The notes below the pieces were generated by a model. That model did no database searches and was not told where the DNA came from. It saw nothing but the letters and a program-made list of their open reading frames with translations. DNA of 40,453 bases from Bacteroidota bacterium. GTDB lineage: Bacteria > Bacteroidota > Bacteroidia > Bacteroidales > JAADGE01. Position numbers and translations under genes: made by a program. How positions within the stretch are numbered: the stretch's first letter is position 1; each line of letters starts with the position of its first letter. This document shows, in pieces, positions 2,886-29,312 of the stretch. The stretch lies in the NCBI GenBank assembly GCA_024277895.1, contig JAJRUH010000129.1:1-40453 (forward strand), written 5' to 3'.

Positions 2886-4022
2886 TTATTTTAACGTGCG
2901 GTTAATATCAGCTTTCAAATCTTCGATATCTTCAATCCCCACAGAAAAACGTACTAAGCCGTCGGATAAACCAATTTTTTTTCTTTCTTCTGCCGGAATA
3001 GAAGCATGCGTCATGCTCGCAGGGTGGTCAACAAGAGATTCTATTCCTCCTAAACTCTCTGCCAACGAGAAATATTTAAAAGAGCTCATTATTTTTTTTG
3101 TTTCTTCTAATGTCATATCAAATTCCACGGAAACAATTCCGCTGAAACCGCTCATTTGTTTTTTTGCAATAACATAATTAGGGTGCGATTCTAAACCCGG
3201 GTAATAGACCTTCCTAACTTTTGGATGGCTTTTAAAGAAATTTGCCAGAGCAAGGGCATTTTGTCCGTGTTTTTCCATTCTTACACCCAAGGTTTTTATT
3301 CCTCTGCTTCCGAGCCAAACATCAAACGGGCTCGGGTTAAGTCCGATTGCCATTCTTGCAAAGTCTATTTTTTCTTTAAATTCAGGATTATTAGTAATAA
3401 CAACCCCGCCAACTATATCAGAATGCCCGCCTATATACTTAGTTGTGCTGTGTAATACAATATCTGCTCCTAAATCCAGCGGATTCTGAAAGTACGGAGT
3501 AGCAAAAGTGTTATCTACCACACTTATTACACCATATTTTCTTGCCGTTTCTGTTACTTTTTCAATATCTGTTATTTTCAGAAGAGGGTTTGTGGGAGAT
3601 TCAATAAAAACCATTTTCGGTTTTAATTTTAAGGCGTTGTTTACCTCCTGTAAATCTTGGGTATTAATAGTTTTAAAACTAATGCTGTAGTTCGAGAAAA
3701 TCCGTTTAAATAAACGATAAGAACCACCGTATATGTCGGCTGTTCCTATTACAGAATCTCCGGCTTTCAGCATTGATATAATTCCGGTTAAACCTCCCAA
3801 CCCTGAGGAAAAGACAGTTGCAAATTTACCGTTTTCTAAAGAACCCAAAGTTGCTTCAATATTTGAAAAATTAGGATTTCCGGCACGAGTGTAGTCATAT
3901 CCTTTGTGTTGTGCAGGAGCGTCTTGAATATATGTAGAAGTCATATAAATAGGCGGAATAATCGCTCCTGTTGCTTCATCGGGTTTTTGCCCTATATGTA
4001 TTGATTTTGTTGAAAATTTCAT
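2886..4022 (-). CDS. Cystathionine gamma-lyase/synthase family PLP enzyme
   Basis: A 378-residue Cys/Met-metabolism PLP enzyme of full family length. The PLP lysine is K195 in HSTTKYIGGHSD, the PLP phosphate site includes SSGLGGLTG, and the VVDNTFATPYFQNPL and SLGGIESLVDHPASMTH motifs are intact. The family contains cystathionine gamma-synthase, gamma-lyase and O-acetylhomoserine lyases, which sequence alone separates poorly. It lies 55 bases downstream of a cystathionine beta-synthase-like gene on the same strand. That pairing points to the reverse transsulfuration route: CBS makes cystathionine from homocysteine and serine, and this enzyme cleaves it to cysteine, 2-oxobutyrate and ammonia. 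Cytosolic. I infer gamma-lyase from context; metB is the main alternative name. Confidence 0.85.
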   Translation of the reverse strand: MKFSTKSIHIGQKPDEATGAIIPPIYMTSTYIQDAPAQHKGYDYTRAGNPNFSNIEATLGSLENGKFATVFSSGLGGLTGIISMLKAGDSVIGTADIYGGSYRLFKRIFSNYSISFKTINTQDLQEVNNALKLKPKMVFIESPTNPLLKITDIEKVTETARKYGVISVVDNTFATPYFQNPLDLGADIVLHSTTKYIGGHSDIVGGVVITNNPEFKEKIDFARMAIGLNPSPFDVWLGSRGIKTLGVRMEKHGQNALALANFFKSHPKVRKVYYPGLESHPNYVIAKKQMSGFSGIVSVEFDMTLEETKKIMSSFKYFSLAESLGGIESLVDHPASMTHASIPAEERKKIGLSDGLVRFSVGIEDIEDLKADINRTLK

Positions 4023-4077
4023 TTTCCTATACTAAAAAGTTATTGTAAATAAATAGTTGTGTATTTTTATTGGCAAA

Positions 4078-5046
4078 TTACAGTTTAAATCCGTTTTTAA
4101 CCATCCATTCATCATTGTAAAATTTACTCAGGTATTTAACTCCGTTATCCGGAATAATTGTAACAATTACAGACGGAACAGTTAAGCTTGCTGCTAACTT
4201 AAGGGCAGCCCATACATTTGCTCCGCCGGTTCCGCCTCCTAATATTCCTTCTTTTCGGGCTAACAGGCGTGCTGTTTCAAAAGCATCTTGGTCGGTAAAT
4301 TGAATCATTTCATCAACTAAACTAAAATCCATTGCTTTAGCAATATGATCTTCTCCCACACCTTCAACAAAATAAGTTCCGATTGCATCATTATTAATTT
4401 TCTTTGTTTTAAAATAATCGTAGTATATCGAACCTGCCGGATCGGGCATTAAAGAAAAAACCTCAGGTTTCTTTTCTTTTAAAAAACGACTGACTCCGCT
4501 TATTGTTCCTCCGGTGCTTCCTGATGCCACATAATGTGTAATTTTTCCTCCGGTTTGCTCCCATATTTCCGGTCCTGTCGTTAAATAATGTGCTTCAGGG
4601 TTTAATAAATTATCATACTGATTAATTCTGAAGCTGCCTTTTATTTCTTCAGAAATTCGCTTTGCGGTATTTACATAATGTTCCGGCGAATTAGGAGCCG
4701 CCGATGTAGGAGTTACAACAATTTCTGCCCCTAAAGCTTTTAATGTGTTTTGTTTTTCTGTACTGACTTTATCCGGCATAGTTAATATGGCTCTGTAACC
4801 CTTTATTGCAGCAATTGTTGCAACAGCAGCTCCGGTATTTCCTGATGTGTTCTCAACAATTGTTCCTCCTTTTTTTAACAGCCCGCGATTTTCGGCATCT
4901 TCAATAATATGTTTAACTATTCTGTCTTTAATACTTCCGCTAGGGTTGAAGAACTCCAGTTTAGCATAAATCTCAATATGCTTATAAGGGTTTATGTTAA
5001 TTAATTTTACTAATGGTGTATTTCCTACCGTGTTTTCTATATTCAT
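4078..5046 (-). CDS. Cystathionine beta-synthase / cysteine synthase (PLP fold II)
   Basis: A fold-type II PLP enzyme of 322 residues when started at the ATG at 5046 (MNIENTVGNTPLVK). An upstream in-frame ATG would add 11 residues with no family counterpart. The PLP lysine is K40 in NPSGSIKDR, the substrate loop is ENTSGNTGAA, and the PLP phosphate loop is SGSTGGTISG. The stretch GPEIWEQTGGKITHYVASG is closer to cystathionine beta-synthases than to CysK/CysM. There are no C-terminal CBS regulatory domains. Together with the following gamma-lyase-like gene it would convert homocysteine plus serine to cysteine. A cysteine synthase using O-acetylserine remains possible. A TACCTTTG -7 element lies on the minus strand at 5068-5075, just upstream of the chosen start. 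Confidence 0.85.
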   Translation of the reverse strand: MNIENTVGNTPLVKLININPYKHIEIYAKLEFFNPSGSIKDRIVKHIIEDAENRGLLKKGGTIVENTSGNTGAAVATIAAIKGYRAILTMPDKVSTEKQNTLKALGAEIVVTPTSAAPNSPEHYVNTAKRISEEIKGSFRINQYDNLLNPEAHYLTTGPEIWEQTGGKITHYVASGSTGGTISGVSRFLKEKKPEVFSLMPDPAGSIYYDYFKTKKINNDAIGTYFVEGVGEDHIAKAMDFSLVDEMIQFTDQDAFETARLLARKEGILGGGTGGANVWAALKLAASLTVPSVIVTIIPDNGVKYLSKFYNDEWMVKNGFKL

Positions 5047-5067
5047 TTGTATATAATTTAAAAAGTA

Positions 5068-5075
5068 CAAAGGTA
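5068..5075 (-). promoter_or_regulatory. Likely -7 element for the transsulfuration pair
   Basis: TACCTTTG on the minus strand matches TAnnTTTG and sits 21 bases before the preferred start at 5046. No clear TTTG is seen at the expected -33 position, so the promoter may be weak or need an activator. Confidence 0.4.
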
Positions 5076-5222
5076 ACAATTATCTTGTTTTTATTTAAAG
5101 TATGTTAATTTATTGTTCCGAAAATATAATATAAGTTTTCAAACTGTTTAAATGAAATAATCAGGAAAAATTTGTTCAATCAGGGACATAAATTAACCTA
5201 TTTAAAATCGACTTTACACACT

Positions 5223-25451: not shown

Positions 25452-25479
25452 AAGTCGCAATATTTTTGCGGCTTTTTTT
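25452..25479 (+). terminator. Terminator of the sigma/PKD operon
   Basis: AAGTCGCAA pairs with TTGCGGCTT (one G-U) around a 5-base loop, then seven T's. It touches the end of the convergent FNR-like gene. Confidence 0.75.
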
Positions 25480-26167
25480 ATCCTATATCACTCAATTTCT
25501 TTAAAATATCATATTGTAAAATAGTCATTCTTTTACCGTTTATTGAAATAACCTTGTCAGCTTTAAATTCAGATAAAATTCTTACGGCATTTTCCATTGA
25601 CATTGAAGAAAGTTCCGCTAACTCTTTACGCGTCATTCCGATATTAAATTCTTCAGAATGGTAAATCTCATCAGCTAAATAAAGCAAAGTATCTGCTAAT
25701 CTGCCTCTTAAATGTTTTCTGCTTATATCACTTATTTTTTTATAGAAATAATTTCCGGAATTACTTATTGTTTTAGTCAGTTCATATAAATAAGCAGAAT
25801 TTTTTTGTGCCAAACCCCTTAAATGCTCGGAATTTATCATACAAACCATAGTATCATCCATTGCTGCAATAGAATATTTATATGTTTTGTCTCCGAACAA
25901 TGTTTGCAAATCAATATATTCTCCTGCTTTTATTAACTTTAATATCAAATTTTTCTTCCCTTCGATATATAACTTAACCATACCTTTTGCAAGATATAAA
26001 GCATGTGTTGCATCTGTTCCCTGCTTGCAAATTGTTTCGCCTTTTTTAAAATTAATAATAGTACAATTAGTTTGAATTGATTCGATATCTGCATCTTCTA
26101 ACAAATTCAAATATTTCCATTTATACGGACATTGTAAACAACTTTGAGGTTTAGAAATTTTAGCCAT
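25478..26167 (-). CDS. Crp/Fnr-family transcriptional regulator
   Basis: A 229-residue regulator with an N-terminal cyclic-nucleotide-like beta-roll (about 22-145; FKKGETICKQGTDATHALYLAKGMVKLYIEG) and a C-terminal winged helix-turn-helix (about 165-225; MTRKELAELSSMSMENAVRILSEFKADKVI). Cysteines at residues 10, 13, 35, 47 and 109 include an N-terminal CLQC pair, as in FNR proteins that carry an oxygen-labile 4Fe-4S cluster. The spacing is not identical to E. coli FNR, so Fe-S binding is likely but unproven. It is divergent from the sulfur-relay operon and a perfect FNR-like dyad lies between them. Probably an oxygen, NO or sulfur-redox switch for that operon and itself. Confidence 0.88.
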   Translation of the reverse strand: MAKISKPQSCLQCPYKWKYLNLLEDADIESIQTNCTIINFKKGETICKQGTDATHALYLAKGMVKLYIEGKKNLILKLIKAGEYIDLQTLFGDKTYKYSIAAMDDTMVCMINSEHLRGLAQKNSAYLYELTKTISNSGNYFYKKISDISRKHLRGRLADTLLYLADEIYHSEEFNIGMTRKELAELSSMSMENAVRILSEFKADKVISINGKRMTILQYDILKKLSDIG

Positions 26168-26181
26168 TTTATTTTTTTCTG

Positions 26182-26189
26182 CAAATATA
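26182..26189 (-). promoter_or_regulatory. -7 element of the FNR-like gene
   Basis: TATATTTG on the minus strand, 15 bases before the ATG at 26167. The -33 region lacks TTTG; the dyad at 26219-26232 is centred about 50 bases upstream of the likely start site. Confidence 0.4.
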
Positions 26190-26218
26190 ATAATTTTTAT
26201 CTGCCGACATAACTTTTT

Positions 26219-26232
26219 TTGTTATATAACAA
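26219..26232. promoter_or_regulatory. FNR/CRP-type operator dyad
   Basis: TTGTTATATAACAA is a perfect 14-bp palindrome of the TTG...CAA form bound by Crp/Fnr proteins. It lies in the divergent region between the regulator gene and the SQR-like operon. Overlapping it is a weaker ATAAC-N3-GTTAT dyad at 26226-26238. Confidence 0.6.
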
Positions 26233-26287
26233 TGTTATTTATGCTATTAAAAACACATATAAATATCCGGACAGTTTTATTAATATA

Positions 26288-26295
26288 TACCTTTG
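26288..26295 (+). promoter_or_regulatory. -7 element of the sulfur-relay operon
   Basis: TACCTTTG, 33 bases before the ATG at 26328. No TTTG is seen at the expected -33 position, which suggests the promoter needs an activator; the FNR-type dyad is centred about 75 bases upstream of the likely transcription start. Confidence 0.5.
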
Positions 26296-26327
26296 CCGTG
26301 TATTAATTTTTAAAATAATAAATAAAG

Positions 26328-27557
26328 ATGAAAAAACTTCTGATATTAGGAGCCGGAACCGGCGGTACAATTATGGCAAACAAAATGCGTAAAATTCTGG
26401 AAAGAGACGAATGGGATATAACAATAATCGATCAATTTAAAACCCATTACTATCAACCGGGGTTTTTATTTATTCCTTTCGGCTTTTACACAAAAAAAGA
26501 TATTATTAAACCCAAATCTGATTTTATTCCGATTGGTGTTAATTTTATTCAATCCGAAATAGACAAAATTGACGGAAAAAACAATAAAGTACTCTTACAA
26601 GACGGCGAAATCCTGAATTATGATTATCTGATAATTTCTACCGGAGTTAAAACTGTTCCGGAAGAAACACCCGGATTAAAAGGCAAACTGTGGCATAAAA
26701 ACGTATTTGATTTTTATACTATTGAAGGTGCAACAGCATTAGCAAATTTTTTTAAAACTTGGGAAGGCGGAGAACTGGTTTTAAATATTGCGGATAACCC
26801 GATAAAATGTCCTGTTGCTCCGCTGGAATTTGTGATGTTTGCAGACTCATTTTTTATTGAAAGAGGAATGCGGGACAAAGTAAATATAACTTTCGTAACT
26901 CCGATGGAAGGAGCTTTTACAAAACCTCGTGCTTCAAAAGTACTCGGAAATATGTTAAAAGACAAAAACATTAATGTAGTTCCTGATTTTTATCTCGAAA
27001 GTGTTGATAATGATAAAAAAGTCATTCGTTCTTATGATGAAAAAGAAGTTCCGTTTGACTGCCTTATTACAATTCCGGTTCATATGGGAGACAGTATGAT
27101 TGAAAGAAGCGGTTTAGGAGATGATATGAATTTTGTTTTAACAGATAAATTTCATCTTAATTCAACAAAATTCGATAATATTTTTGTTATCGGAGATTCG
27201 GCAAACCTTCCTACCTCAAAGGCAGGTTCAGTAGTACATTTTGCAGCTGATGTAGTTACCGAAAATCTTATGTGTGCAATTGAAGGAAGACCGTTAACGG
27301 CAAAATTTGACGGACATTCAAACTGTTATATCGAAACAGGACACGGAAAAGGCGCATTAATTGATTTCAATTACGATACAGAACCGCTTCCCGGCTCATT
27401 TCCTTTTCCGGGCATAGGACCTTTCGGATTATTAAAAGAAACCAGAATGAACCACTACGGTAAGCTGATGTTCCGATGGATGTATTGGCACATACTATTG
27501 AAAGGAAAAGAAATGCCGATTCCTTCAGAAATGTATATGGCAGGAAAAGAAGTATAA
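26328..27557 (+). CDS. Sulfide:quinone oxidoreductase-like flavoprotein
   Basis: A 409-residue FAD-dependent oxidoreductase. The Rossmann FAD motif GAGTGGTIMA is at residues 8-17; a second FAD segment NIFVIGDSANLPTSKAG is at 284-300. C161 (IKCPVAPLEF) and C333 (HSNCYIETG) sit where SQR enzymes keep two redox cysteines; the third cysteine of some SQR types, near residue 128, is absent. The C-terminal RWMYWHILLKGKEMPIPSEM is amphipathic, suited to membrane contact. SQR oxidises sulfide to polysulfide or persulfide and reduces quinone. It is the first gene of an operon with DUF1641, TusE/DsrC-like and DsrE-like genes, so its product may be handed on as protein-bound sulfane sulfur. It could also run as a persulfide reductase or related flavoprotein. 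Confidence 0.82.
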   Translation: MKKLLILGAGTGGTIMANKMRKILERDEWDITIIDQFKTHYYQPGFLFIPFGFYTKKDIIKPKSDFIPIGVNFIQSEIDKIDGKNNKVLLQDGEILNYDYLIISTGVKTVPEETPGLKGKLWHKNVFDFYTIEGATALANFFKTWEGGELVLNIADNPIKCPVAPLEFVMFADSFFIERGMRDKVNITFVTPMEGAFTKPRASKVLGNMLKDKNINVVPDFYLESVDNDKKVIRSYDEKEVPFDCLITIPVHMGDSMIERSGLGDDMNFVLTDKFHLNSTKFDNIFVIGDSANLPTSKAGSVVHFAADVVTENLMCAIEGRPLTAKFDGHSNCYIETGHGKGALIDFNYDTEPLPGSFPFPGIGPFGLLKETRMNHYGKLMFRWMYWHILLKGKEMPIPSEMYMAGKEV

Positions 27558-27588
27558 ATCATTTATTTAATCTTAAACAAAAATAATT

Positions 27589-28272
27589 ATGTCAGATAAT
27601 AATATTCAAGGGCAAATAAATGATTTAAACCGCAAAATTGATATCATTCTTGAAGAAATGTTTGCTCAAAGAAACAGCAGAATTGAAAAAGAAGATTTGA
27701 TAAAAGATGTTTCAATTGTCGGTAAGGATATGTTTGCTCATACCGTAACTGTTTTAGACCAAGCCGGAGTTGATTTCGACGGAGAAGCTCTTACGGCACT
27801 GTTAATAAAACTTGTCAGAAATATCGGGACATTCAATCAAATGATGGATTCACTCGAAAGCCTTACGGATTTTATGAAAGATGTATCTCCGATTATAAAC
27901 CAAGTAGGACTTGATGCTATTGCAAAAGTTTCGGAATTTGAAGAAAAAGGTTATTTAGATTTCTTTAAAGAACTTATCAGTATCAGCGATAATATAGTAA
28001 CACACTTTTCGACAAAAGACGTAAGAGATTTGGCAGATAATATTGTTTCAATTCTCGAAACGGTTAAAAACCTGACACAACCGGATATGATGGGTGCAAT
28101 AAATAATGCGCTTACGGTATTTAAAAGCATGGATACCGAAAACATTCCGGAATATTCTATGTGGAAAGCATTCAGAACTATGCAAACTCCGGAGATGAAA
28201 AAAAGTATCGGCTTTATGATAACATTCTTAAAAAATATTACAACAACTATGAATAAAGAAAAAAGTAATTAA
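27589..28272 (+). CDS. DUF1641 family protein
   Basis: A 227-residue soluble, largely helical protein. DGEALTALLIKLVRNIGTFNQMMDSLESLTDFMKDVSPIINQVGLDAI is the DUF1641 core; the remainder contains helical repeats (LADNIVSILETVKNLTQP, PEYSMWKAFRTMQTPEMKKSIGFMITFLKNI). DUF1641 proteins are often encoded next to SQR-like flavoproteins, which suggests an accessory or scaffold role. No cysteines or transmembrane helices were seen. 31 bases after the flavoprotein gene and 25 before the DsrC-like gene, so same operon. Function is unproven. Confidence 0.82.
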   Translation: MSDNNIQGQINDLNRKIDIILEEMFAQRNSRIEKEDLIKDVSIVGKDMFAHTVTVLDQAGVDFDGEALTALLIKLVRNIGTFNQMMDSLESLTDFMKDVSPIINQVGLDAIAKVSEFEEKGYLDFFKELISISDNIVTHFSTKDVRDLADNIVSILETVKNLTQPDMMGAINNALTVFKSMDTENIPEYSMWKAFRTMQTPEMKKSIGFMITFLKNITTTMNKEKSN

Positions 28273-28297
28273 TTAATAACCAGTAAAATATAAAATT

Positions 28298-28609
28298 ATG
28301 GCACAAAAAGAATATGCAGGAAAAGTGATTGAATTAGACGATAACGGTTATTTTACAAATCCGGATCAATGGACTAAAGAAATGGCAAAAGAAATGGCAA
28401 AAGAAAATGGCGAAGAGCTTACAGATAAGCATTTTGAAATTTTAGAATTTATCAGAGAAAAAATAAAAAGCGGTCAAAGCTTAACCATTCGTTCTATCGG
28501 GAAATCGGGCATTACAGACATTAAAAGTTTTTATAAACTTTTCCCCGGCGCCCCTTTAAAAAAAGCAACATTATATGCCGGTGTTTCAAAACCGTCAAGT
28601 TGCGTATAA
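28298..28609 (+). CDS. TusE/DsrC-family sulfur carrier protein
   Basis: A 103-residue protein of family length. DDNGYFTNPDQWTKEMAKEMAKENGEELTDKHFEILEFIRE and SIGKSGITDIKSFYKLFPGAPLKKA are DsrC/TusE signatures. The flexible C-terminal arm ends KPSSCV with the essential penultimate cysteine C102. The second arm cysteine of true DsrC (in K-x-A-C) is replaced by threonine (KKATLYAGV), so it resembles TusE-like or single-cysteine DsrC-like carriers rather than the two-cysteine DsrC that makes a trisulfide with sulfite reductase. It probably receives sulfane sulfur on C102 from a DsrE-type partner encoded next to it. Confidence 0.9.
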   Translation: MAQKEYAGKVIELDDNGYFTNPDQWTKEMAKEMAKENGEELTDKHFEILEFIREKIKSGQSLTIRSIGKSGITDIKSFYKLFPGAPLKKATLYAGVSKPSSCV

Positions 28610-28637
28610 AACAAATATTAACTTAAATTCAATAATT

Positions 28638-29141
28638 ATGGCAGAAGAAGTTAAACACCCTTTAAAAAAGGTATTAATGATTTGTGCAAAAGGCTCTTTA
28701 GAAGATGTACTTGCAACATTAGTTATGGCAAACGGTGCCGTAATGGAAGGAATTGAAACAAAAGTTTTTTTTACTTTTTTCGGATTAGACGGAATTACTA
28801 AAAAACGTTTAAATAAATTACATACGGCAACTGTCGGTAATCCGGCAATGCGTATGCCCGGCGGACTTCCGTTTCCGACGTGGCTGGGAAGTATCCCCGG
28901 AGTTGAAGCCGGTGTATCGGCAATGATGAAAAAACAAATTGAAGATTTGGACATCCCTAAAGTTGATGAATTTTTAGAAATGATAGTTGCCGGAGGAGGC
29001 GAAATTTTTGCCTGCAAATTAGCTGCAGATATGTTTAAACTAAAAAAAGAAGATTTAATTGATGAAGTAAAAGATATTATAACCATCGGTGAATTTTACG
29101 AAATGGCCGACGGTCTGCAAACTCAAATTATTTTTACTTAA
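28638..29141 (+). CDS. DsrE/DsrF-like (DsrE2 type) sulfur transfer protein
   Basis: A 167-residue protein from the ATG at 28638 (MAEEVKHPLKKVLMIC). An earlier in-frame ATG at 28575 would overlap the DsrC-like gene and add 21 residues with no family match. It carries the DsrE fold start KKVLMICAKGSLEDVLATLVMANGAVMEGIETKVFFTFFG, with a loop GNPAMRMPGGLPFPTWLGSIPGVEA typical of DsrE2/DrsH-like proteins. The likely persulfide cysteine is C126 in GGGEIFACKLAADMF; C16 is an additional cysteine. DsrE2 proteins shuttle sulfane sulfur between donors and TusA/DsrC-type carriers. Here it ends the SQR operon and is followed by a terminator at 29282-29312. Confidence 0.87.
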   Translation: MAEEVKHPLKKVLMICAKGSLEDVLATLVMANGAVMEGIETKVFFTFFGLDGITKKRLNKLHTATVGNPAMRMPGGLPFPTWLGSIPGVEAGVSAMMKKQIEDLDIPKVDEFLEMIVAGGGEIFACKLAADMFKLKKEDLIDEVKDIITIGEFYEMADGLQTQIIFT

Positions 29142-29163
29142 AACACAATCTTTATTCCCGAAA

Positions 29164-29241
29164 GTCATCAGATGAATAACTTTACAAATATCGGAATTGA
29201 TTTAAACTCATAATCAGCCGGTTTAGAATTCATCTGATGAC
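29164..29241. repeat. 14-bp inverted repeat whose arms are themselves palindromes
   Basis: GTCATCAGATGAAT (29164-29177) and its exact reverse complement ATTCATCTGATGAC (29228-29241), 50 bases apart. Each arm contains TCATC-N-GATGA, an 11-bp dyad. Flanking CCGA and TCGG extend the symmetry. Too long a loop for a terminator; could be paired protein sites or a mobile repeat. Confidence 0.6.
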
Positions 29242-29281
29242 AGAATCGGTATTTTTTGCTTTTCGAAATTAACTCAATTTT

Positions 29282-29312
29282 AAAAGATTTTCATTCCTTG
29301 AAAGTCTTTTTT
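29282..29312 (+). terminator. Terminator of the sulfur-relay operon
   Basis: AAAAGATTTTCA pairs with TGAAAGTCTTTT (12 bp, one G-U) around a 5-base loop, then T's. 140 bases after the DsrE2 stop. The rest of 29313-29470 has only a 12-base match to the miniature-element arm at 29416-29427. Confidence 0.75.

Follow-up and report, generated by a model that had tools for sequence, protein, structure and literature searches.

What can a sulfide:quinone reductase (SQR)-like flavoprotein accomplish together with a DsrC-type carrier and a DsrE2-like sulfurtransferase in a genome where no dsrA gene scores over cut-off? The question is raised by an operon in a 40,453-nucleotide stretch of DNA from a Bacteroidota bacterium (assembly GCA_024277895.1, contig JAJRUH010000129.1, positions 1-40,453, forward strand; hereafter the window), in which the genes for these proteins and for a DUF1641 protein, second in order, follow one another (Table 1). 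We put at about one in two the probability that the operon encodes a cytoplasmic, sulfite-reductase-independent persulfide relay that oxidizes sulfide. The set probably serves to oxidize toxic sulfide inside the cell and to park its sulfur on a small carrier protein, and the DUF1641 helper, by analogy with a characterized relative, likely recruits menaquinone, the electron carrier of the membrane.

Conservation of the operon

An earlier annotation made from the letters without database searches (the sequence-only reading) had described four same-strand genes with gaps of 31, 25 and 28 bases and a divergent FNR-type gene, and these coordinates are confirmed. Relatives were gathered by a pattern scan of genome contigs with the SQR protein alone, and the best 80 of 148 loci were kept; these are the nearest relatives from an unevenly sampled family, and several are short contigs. 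The order SQR-DUF1641-DsrC-DsrE2 is found in 74 of the 80, a recurrence beyond chance, with median gaps of 16, 28 and 19 bases. Among the remaining six, the contig ends inside DUF1641 in four and inside DsrC in one (L083), and one locus, taken up below, differs.

For a wider view, DUF1641, PhsA, SQR and DsrC were all sought in a single draw of 296 genomes from the phylum. SQR was detected at E <= 1e-60 in 75 of them, from which we left out a family of 45 genomes with 45-50% identity (f18), judged to be Chlorobi-type by inference from the presence of dsrA in both members tested, and two f21 genomes with 32-34% identity. The 28 genomes kept, host included, have an SQR of at least 53% identity and a listed completeness of 95.7-100%. 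In all 28 (the host and 27 fetched regions), the genes for SQR, DsrC and DsrE2 are adjacent on one strand, versus a DUF1641 gene between SQR and DsrC in only 7 of the 27, or 8 of 28 with the host. The invariant core is therefore SQR-DsrC-DsrE2, and DUF1641 is an addition to it. Conservation of all four genes together, which the sequence-only reading had expected, thus holds among near relatives, but the wider unit has three genes. On the SQR tree the presence of DUF1641 needs two changes, and it may have entered the operon once.

The association of SQR with DsrC is also close when viewed from the carrier: outside family f18, DsrC without a close SQR occurs in the 296-genome sample only in G160 and the sub-threshold G259. 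In two Chlorobi-type loci (L137 and L138), a 49-50% identical SQR lies one open reading frame (ORF) from dsrC, with dsrA on the other side of DsrC, an arrangement that suggests that the SQR-DsrC partnership is old. Judging by record titles and tree groups, the gene set occurs in Bacteroidota, Ignavibacteriota and Marinimicrobia-type genomes.

The SQR-type flavoprotein

The flavoprotein matches Pyr_redox_2 and, over its full length, the NF049943 model "type III sulfide quinone reductase, selenoprotein subtype" (646 bits; cut-off 525). Its closest solved relatives by sequence (phmmer, E about 1e-45) are mitochondrial SQOR chains, which we take to be human. In both alignments shown, C161 and C333 align with SQOR cysteines that are presumably the catalytic pair, and each is invariant (81/81, counting the window and the 80 relatives), in agreement with the weight that the sequence-only reading had placed on them. 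According to a table in one review, the selenoproteins of NF049943 carry selenocysteine in an HxxU motif (PMC13188914). That motif would fit H330-S-N-C333 here and may mark C333 as a reactive position. The protein thus resembles type III SQRs in the full-length match over cut-off, in both cysteines and in having HxxC where HxxU stands, and differs from them in carrying cysteine in place of selenocysteine and in its operon partners DsrC, DsrE2 and DUF1641. Selenocysteine was looked for and found neither in this gene nor in its relatives of the 296-genome sample, none of the 75 SQR matches having an in-frame stop. The best reading of the protein is a predicted cytoplasmic, menaquinone-linked sulfide:quinone oxidoreductase.

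The carrier and the DsrE2-like protein

The carrier scores over the cut-offs of Pfam DsrC (82.5 bits; cut-off 24.9) and of the DsrC/TusE/DsvC subfamily model TIGR03342 (71.7; 53.5) and falls below that of the TusE equivalog NF008562 (52.9; 191). Its operon partner behaves similarly, scoring over the cut-off of Pfam DrsE_2, PF13686 (93.3; 25), and under that of the NCBIfam DsrE2 equivalog NF047629 (93.9; 210). Because both equivalog cut-offs are missed, we limit the names to "DsrC/TusE-family" and "DsrE2-like"; with that restriction, the four family names given by the sequence-only reading stand.

The two cysteines expected to carry sulfur are well conserved. In 76 rows (the window and relatives), C102, of 103 residues, is found in all 75 that reach that position, and C126 of the DsrE2-like protein is likewise found in 75/75, whereas its C16 is variable (59/75). 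In the 296-genome sample, C102 is retained in 27 of the 28 operons. The second arm cysteine of DsrC (CysB) is absent from the carriers of the window and the 27 sampled operons, and no second cysteine column is present among the close relatives; the Chlorobi-type DsrC proteins of L137 and L138 have both arm cysteines.

The DUF1641 protein

The sequence-only reading had described DUF1641 as a family without established function, a statement that does not hold, since it has a characterized relative, ForE of Bacillus subtilis, needed for menaquinone reduction. The window protein scores 25.8 bits against PF07849 (cut-off 21), and a profile built from 46 of the operons' DUF1641 proteins matches ForE1 (8rqz, 8rr0 and 9gzq) with an E value of 5.9e-7 over profile positions 104-223 (120 positions). 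Passages of the ForCE study describe ForE as predicted to be cofactor-less and report that ForC1 without ForE1 loses formate:menadione activity and nearly all of its bound menaquinone-7, and the authors propose that ForE couples formate oxidation to quinone reduction (PMC8808070). As far as those passages go, the likeness lies in a DUF1641 subunit without a cofactor motif beside a soluble dehydrogenase. The difference is that the partner here is a flavin adenine dinucleotide (FAD)-containing SQR-type protein rather than a molybdenum formate dehydrogenase, and menaquinone binding here is only predicted. No molybdenum catalytic subunit of the ForC kind adjoins the operon; the partner genes of DUF1641 are those for SQR and DsrC.

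A second case comes from the same organism. YjlC is annotated as DUF1641 in a table row of one paper (PMC12020853), and a passage of another gives yjlC-ndh as an operon for NADH dehydrogenase (PMC5355995), so that DUF1641 accompanies a second quinone-reducing flavoprotein. The parallel is a DUF1641 gene sharing an operon with such a flavoprotein; the substrate there is NADH rather than sulfide, and the connection is made through the annotation, the text passages and a non-significant structural match only. From the ForE1 homology, the need for ForE in menaquinone reduction and the yjlC-ndh pairing, we propose by analogy that DUF1641 is a menaquinone adaptor subunit for SQR that would present or bind the quinone.

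Other roles for DUF1641 fare less well. The sequence-only reading had placed it as a scaffold or adaptor between the two halves of the operon; the quinone adaptor fits better, and an obligate bridge is ruled out by the 20 of 28 homologous operons that do without it. That DUF1641 substitutes for a lost SQR membrane tail is likewise ruled out, SQR C-termini being similar in operons with and without it. A menaquinone stalk, HucM, is described for the Huc hydrogenase in passages of PMC10017518, and the first gene in a table of a Parageobacillus Huc-type operon is DUF1641 (PMC12976888). The DUF1641 profile does not list HucM even at E 10, and we rejected it as a relative, keeping the stalk as an analogy only.

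A proposed relay

The computations establish the parts and their conserved cysteines, the linkage of SQR, DsrC and DsrE2, the lack of a dsrA over cut-off and the homology of DUF1641 to ForE1. A hydropathy scan gave no membrane segment (highest 19-residue mean, 1.55). We infer an enzyme activity, an order of carriers, a direction of flow and an acceptor as follows. The flavoprotein would oxidize sulfide using its C161/C333 pair and FAD, and electrons from the FAD would pass to menaquinone, aided by the ForE-like DUF1641 protein in the part of the family that bears it. The sulfane sulfur left on an SQR cysteine would then move, in what we consider the most likely order, to C126 of the DsrE2-like protein and on to C102 of the DsrC-type carrier. 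Once loaded, the carrier would finally deliver it to a downstream acceptor that would not be DsrAB and, in most of the examined genomes, would not be TusA. A signaling role, also raised by the sequence-only reading, is conceivable for such a relay.

A more general formulation can be offered tentatively, and we hold it to be rather less probable than the relay itself. It would make the operon a distinct and widespread form of sulfide oxidation, in which a type III SQR has a dedicated single-cysteine DsrC acceptor reached via DsrE2. Sulfite reductase would be absent and TusA usually so, and the ForE-type DUF1641 subunit of one part of the family would make DUF1641 a menaquinone adaptor that plugs quite generally into unrelated soluble dehydrogenases (formate, NADH and sulfide).

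Several results weigh against the proposed relay. No acceptor common to all operon genomes was found, and in the relatives the set often adjoins reductive-looking PhsABC genes, which could mean that sulfur flows in the opposite direction. In L121 (genome G239), the sole such operon seen, the C-terminal cysteine of the carrier is replaced by tyrosine (KPASYV); this variant is also a natural test of the need for that cysteine. At L027 (3082-3373), no DsrC start is present within 289 bases after DUF1641, where other sufficiently long loci have one, and the locus may be a true exception; a rearrangement or a larger gap is possible there. For the quinone adaptor in particular, the absence of DUF1641 from 20 of the 28 operons, together with the likeness of the SQR C-termini, means that the chemistry can do without it and that it is no simple replacement of a lost tail. 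Two AlphaFold models of DUF1641 were poor, with predicted template modeling scores of 0.29 and 0.25. Foldseek with the first of them gave nothing below E 2.6, and the fold searches listed no ForE1. The top Foldseek row, itself non-significant, was chain A of a YjlC-YjlD model (taken as YjlC), which reached Z 3.6 against the second DUF1641 model, below unrelated rows.

Neighboring sulfur genes and the direction of flow

That the relay is independent of sulfite reductase, as the sequence-only reading had suggested, is supported by the genome searches: among the 51 operon genomes and the 28 phylum-sample genomes, none has a dsrA that reaches its cut-off, and the two Chlorobi-type genomes included in the search both do. 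Sub-threshold dsrA matches occurred in 2/51 and 7/28, and likewise in 8 of 14 control genomes such as Escherichia coli. TusA was over cut-off in 19 of the 51 operon genomes, many of which are metagenome-assembled genomes (MAGs) of unstated completeness, and in 2 of the 28. TusA is therefore not the general acceptor, and it is a possible one in the host species. The earlier remark that dsrAB, rhodanese and tusA genes are all lacking nearby thus stands for dsrA and needs qualifying for the other two, since TusA and rhodaneses are encoded on other host contigs and rhodaneses neighbor the operon in some relatives. The operon resembles the reverse-Dsr relay, in which sulfur runs from rhodanese, TusA and DsrE2 to DsrC and then DsrAB, in its DsrE2-type and DsrC-type carriers. 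It differs in that the host has no dsrA over cut-off, the operon has no TusA and the arm of the carrier bears a single cysteine rather than two.

In the window the operon is an isolated unit, as had been claimed, but relatives often have further genes alongside. Among the 80 loci, the neighbors include a PhsA-like molybdoenzyme (25), a PhsB-type iron-sulfur protein (19), NrfD (17), YeeE halves (18 and 15), a membrane-anchored rhodanese cluster (17), TatC (20) and a MobA-like protein (16). In the fullest order (L028 and L035), PhsA-PhsB-NrfD-YeeE-YeeE-rhodanese-rhodanese is followed by the FNR-type gene and then by SQR-DUF1641-DsrC-DsrE2-TatC. These neighbors favor the best surviving alternative, which we regard as possible though unlikely: sulfane sulfur from PhsABC and rhodaneses would be imported through YeeE to DsrE2 and DsrC, and the SQR-like protein would release or re-oxidize sulfide and so balance the quinone pool, the set then supplying the cytoplasmic half of a pathway that respires or disproportionates thiosulfate, polysulfide or sulfur. 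Also in favor of import, another host contig (L107) carries an octaheme tetrathionate-reductase-family cytochrome gene and, divergent from it, a PhsA-PhsB-NrfD-YeeE-YeeE cluster with three rhodaneses. A PhsA relative (E <= 1e-150) is present in 38/51 operon genomes versus 34/296 in the phylum sample, two sets that differ beyond the operon. Against import, the other 13, many of them MAGs, have no such PhsA, and it is present in only 3 of the 9 phylum-sample genomes with a DUF1641 match. Three-gene operons can also stand beside oxidative-looking genes: L129 adjoins SoxA-like and SoxB-like genes and weakly YeeE-like halves, and L130 adjoins a SorA/SoxC-like sulfite dehydrogenase gene, the Sox and SorA/SoxC matches being below curated equivalog cut-offs. 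Running an SQR in the reverse direction is unfavorable by redox potentials. The YTD cluster (YeeE, TusA, DsrE) of sulfur disproportionators is similar in that YeeE and DsrE-type genes stand with sulfur-respiration genes in the relatives, and differs from the relatives' make-up of PhsABC, GGC-tailed rhodaneses, SQR and DsrC.

It is doubtful that the flavoprotein has ceased to be an SQR and oxidizes some other thiol or persulfide. Given the strict pairing with DsrC (28/28), the enzyme might plausibly act on the carrier directly and would then be a DsrC thiol/persulfide:menaquinone oxidoreductase, for example one that reoxidizes DsrC, but neither SQR cysteine varies, and SQRs are its nearest relatives of solved structure. 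Biosynthetic donation, in which SQR would supply sulfur that the TusE-like carrier passes to an enzyme of thiolation, for example MnmA (as E. coli TusE does), is very improbable: the carrier shares with TusE its single penultimate cysteine and is without the other arm cysteine present in Chlorobi-type DsrC, but the TusE equivalog model is missed, the spread of the close SQR-DsrC-DsrE2 set is patchy (28 of 296 phylum genomes) and the recurrent neighbors are respiratory sulfur genes, although no search was aimed at tRNA-modification genes. The tRNA thiolation relay TusBCD-TusE is nevertheless akin to the operon in placing a single-cysteine TusE/DsrC-family protein beside a DsrE-family protein, and differs in that the partner here is a flavoprotein of quinone-reducing type.

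Significance

Each of the protein families is already known, and the combination would amount to an SQR relay that is linked to DsrC and lacks sulfite reductase. We found no description of the operon, its three-gene core or the SQR-DUF1641 pairing in the titles, abstract beginnings and term passages of the open-licence PMC literature, and no paper there joining DUF1641 with sulfide quinone. Neither PMC10504309 nor PMC10090944 contained any of the terms sought, and the passages of PMC5573963 did not concern the operon. If the proposed sulfide-oxidizing relay is correct, type III SQRs gain both a partner and an acceptor, those single-cysteine DsrC proteins that stand apart from dsr pathways gain a role and DUF1641 becomes a testable quinone-adaptor family. 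The combination sqr-dsrC-dsrE2 without dsrAB would then also mark genomes of Bacteroidota, Ignavibacteriota and the Marinimicrobia type that handle sulfide; in a passage of one review, the Marinimicrobia are said to have an unspecified sulfur metabolism (PMC8359478).

Regulation and other features

A divergent FNR-type gene is present in 53 of the 80 relatives, or in 52 of the 73 whose upstream sequence extends to 700 bases or more, and a MerR-type gene takes its position in six (L074, L077, L078, L080, L083 and L086). The regulator has three conserved cysteines, C10 and C13 in a C10-x-x-C13 motif (each 55/55) and C109 (53/55); in E. coli FNR, four cysteine ligands hold a [4Fe-4S] cluster. Of 55 upstream regions, the window counted, 32 contain an FNR-type box, TGATnnnnATCA, versus a mean of 0.9 and a maximum of 4 in shuffles and none in a control stretch inside the gene. 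The box is missing from the upstream regions of the window, L011 and L013, the window having ATAAC/GTTAT inverted repeats instead, and we therefore rejected TGATnnnnATCA as an FNR box common to all. Upstream of the host phsA gene (L107, 14229) there is a TGATATATATCA box, of the same FNR-type kind as that of the relatives.

At the other end of the operon, the terminator proposed by the sequence-only reading is upheld by its folding energy and T run; it is G+C-poor, however, and is not among the terminators given by a consensus terminator scan. The DsrE2-like gene has an alternative ATG at 28575 that would give 188 residues and an overlap with the DsrC gene at its end. The shorter form in Table 1 matches the relatives better, 49 of 74 of which have 167 residues (range, 159-172).

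Table 1. Positions of the operon genes and flanking elements in the window
Feature	Position	Strand	Length	Remarks
Crp/FNR-type regulator gene	25478-26167	-		Divergent from operon; PF00027 and PF13545
Divergent promoter region	26168-26327			Inverted repeats ATAAC-N7-GTTAT (26209-26225) and ATAAC-AAT-GTTAT (26226-26238), spotted by eye
SQR-like flavoprotein	26328-27557	+	409 aa	Type III sulfide:quinone reductase-like; Cys form of NF049943
DUF1641 protein, ForE-like	27589-28272	+	227 aa	PF07849; no cysteine
DsrC/TusE-family single-cysteine carrier	28298-28609	+	103 aa	TIGR03342; C102 penultimate
DsrE2-like sulfurtransferase	28638-29141	+	167 aa	PF13686; C126
Hairpin 3' of DsrE2-like gene	29164-29241	+		14-base arms 29164-29177 and 29228-29241; -26.2 kcal/mol, z -4.75
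Probable rho-independent terminator hairpin	29282-29312	+		G+C-poor; -11 kcal/mol (29282-29310), shuffle z -4.96; T run after

Two further observations concern sulfur genes on other host contigs and in relatives. On contig C164 (L101:672-7864), an FNR-type gene faces genes for a DsrE-family protein, a DsrE2-like protein, TusA, an FlpD/MvhD-like protein, two HdrA-like proteins and a QmoC-like protein, an operon that possibly passes electrons from carrier-bound sulfur to quinone. The rhodaneses encoded beside phsABC-yeeE (L035:5812-7123, L028:5820-7097) have a K/R-rich tail and a -GGC end in 25 of 29 cases, with two -GGCG and two -EGC ends in the others, and just 26 of 1122 ORFs across the loci and the window have -GGC ends of that kind; the three rhodaneses of the host (L107:6619-9098) also end in GGC. 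The tail resembles a swinging arm at the C terminus, whose cysteine could pass sulfur on to YeeE. Elsewhere in the window, at 2886-5079, two neighboring genes in the ORF list resemble, by eye, pyridoxal phosphate enzymes of cysteine/methionine metabolism, and genes for sulfide assimilation may accordingly lie in the same window as the operon.

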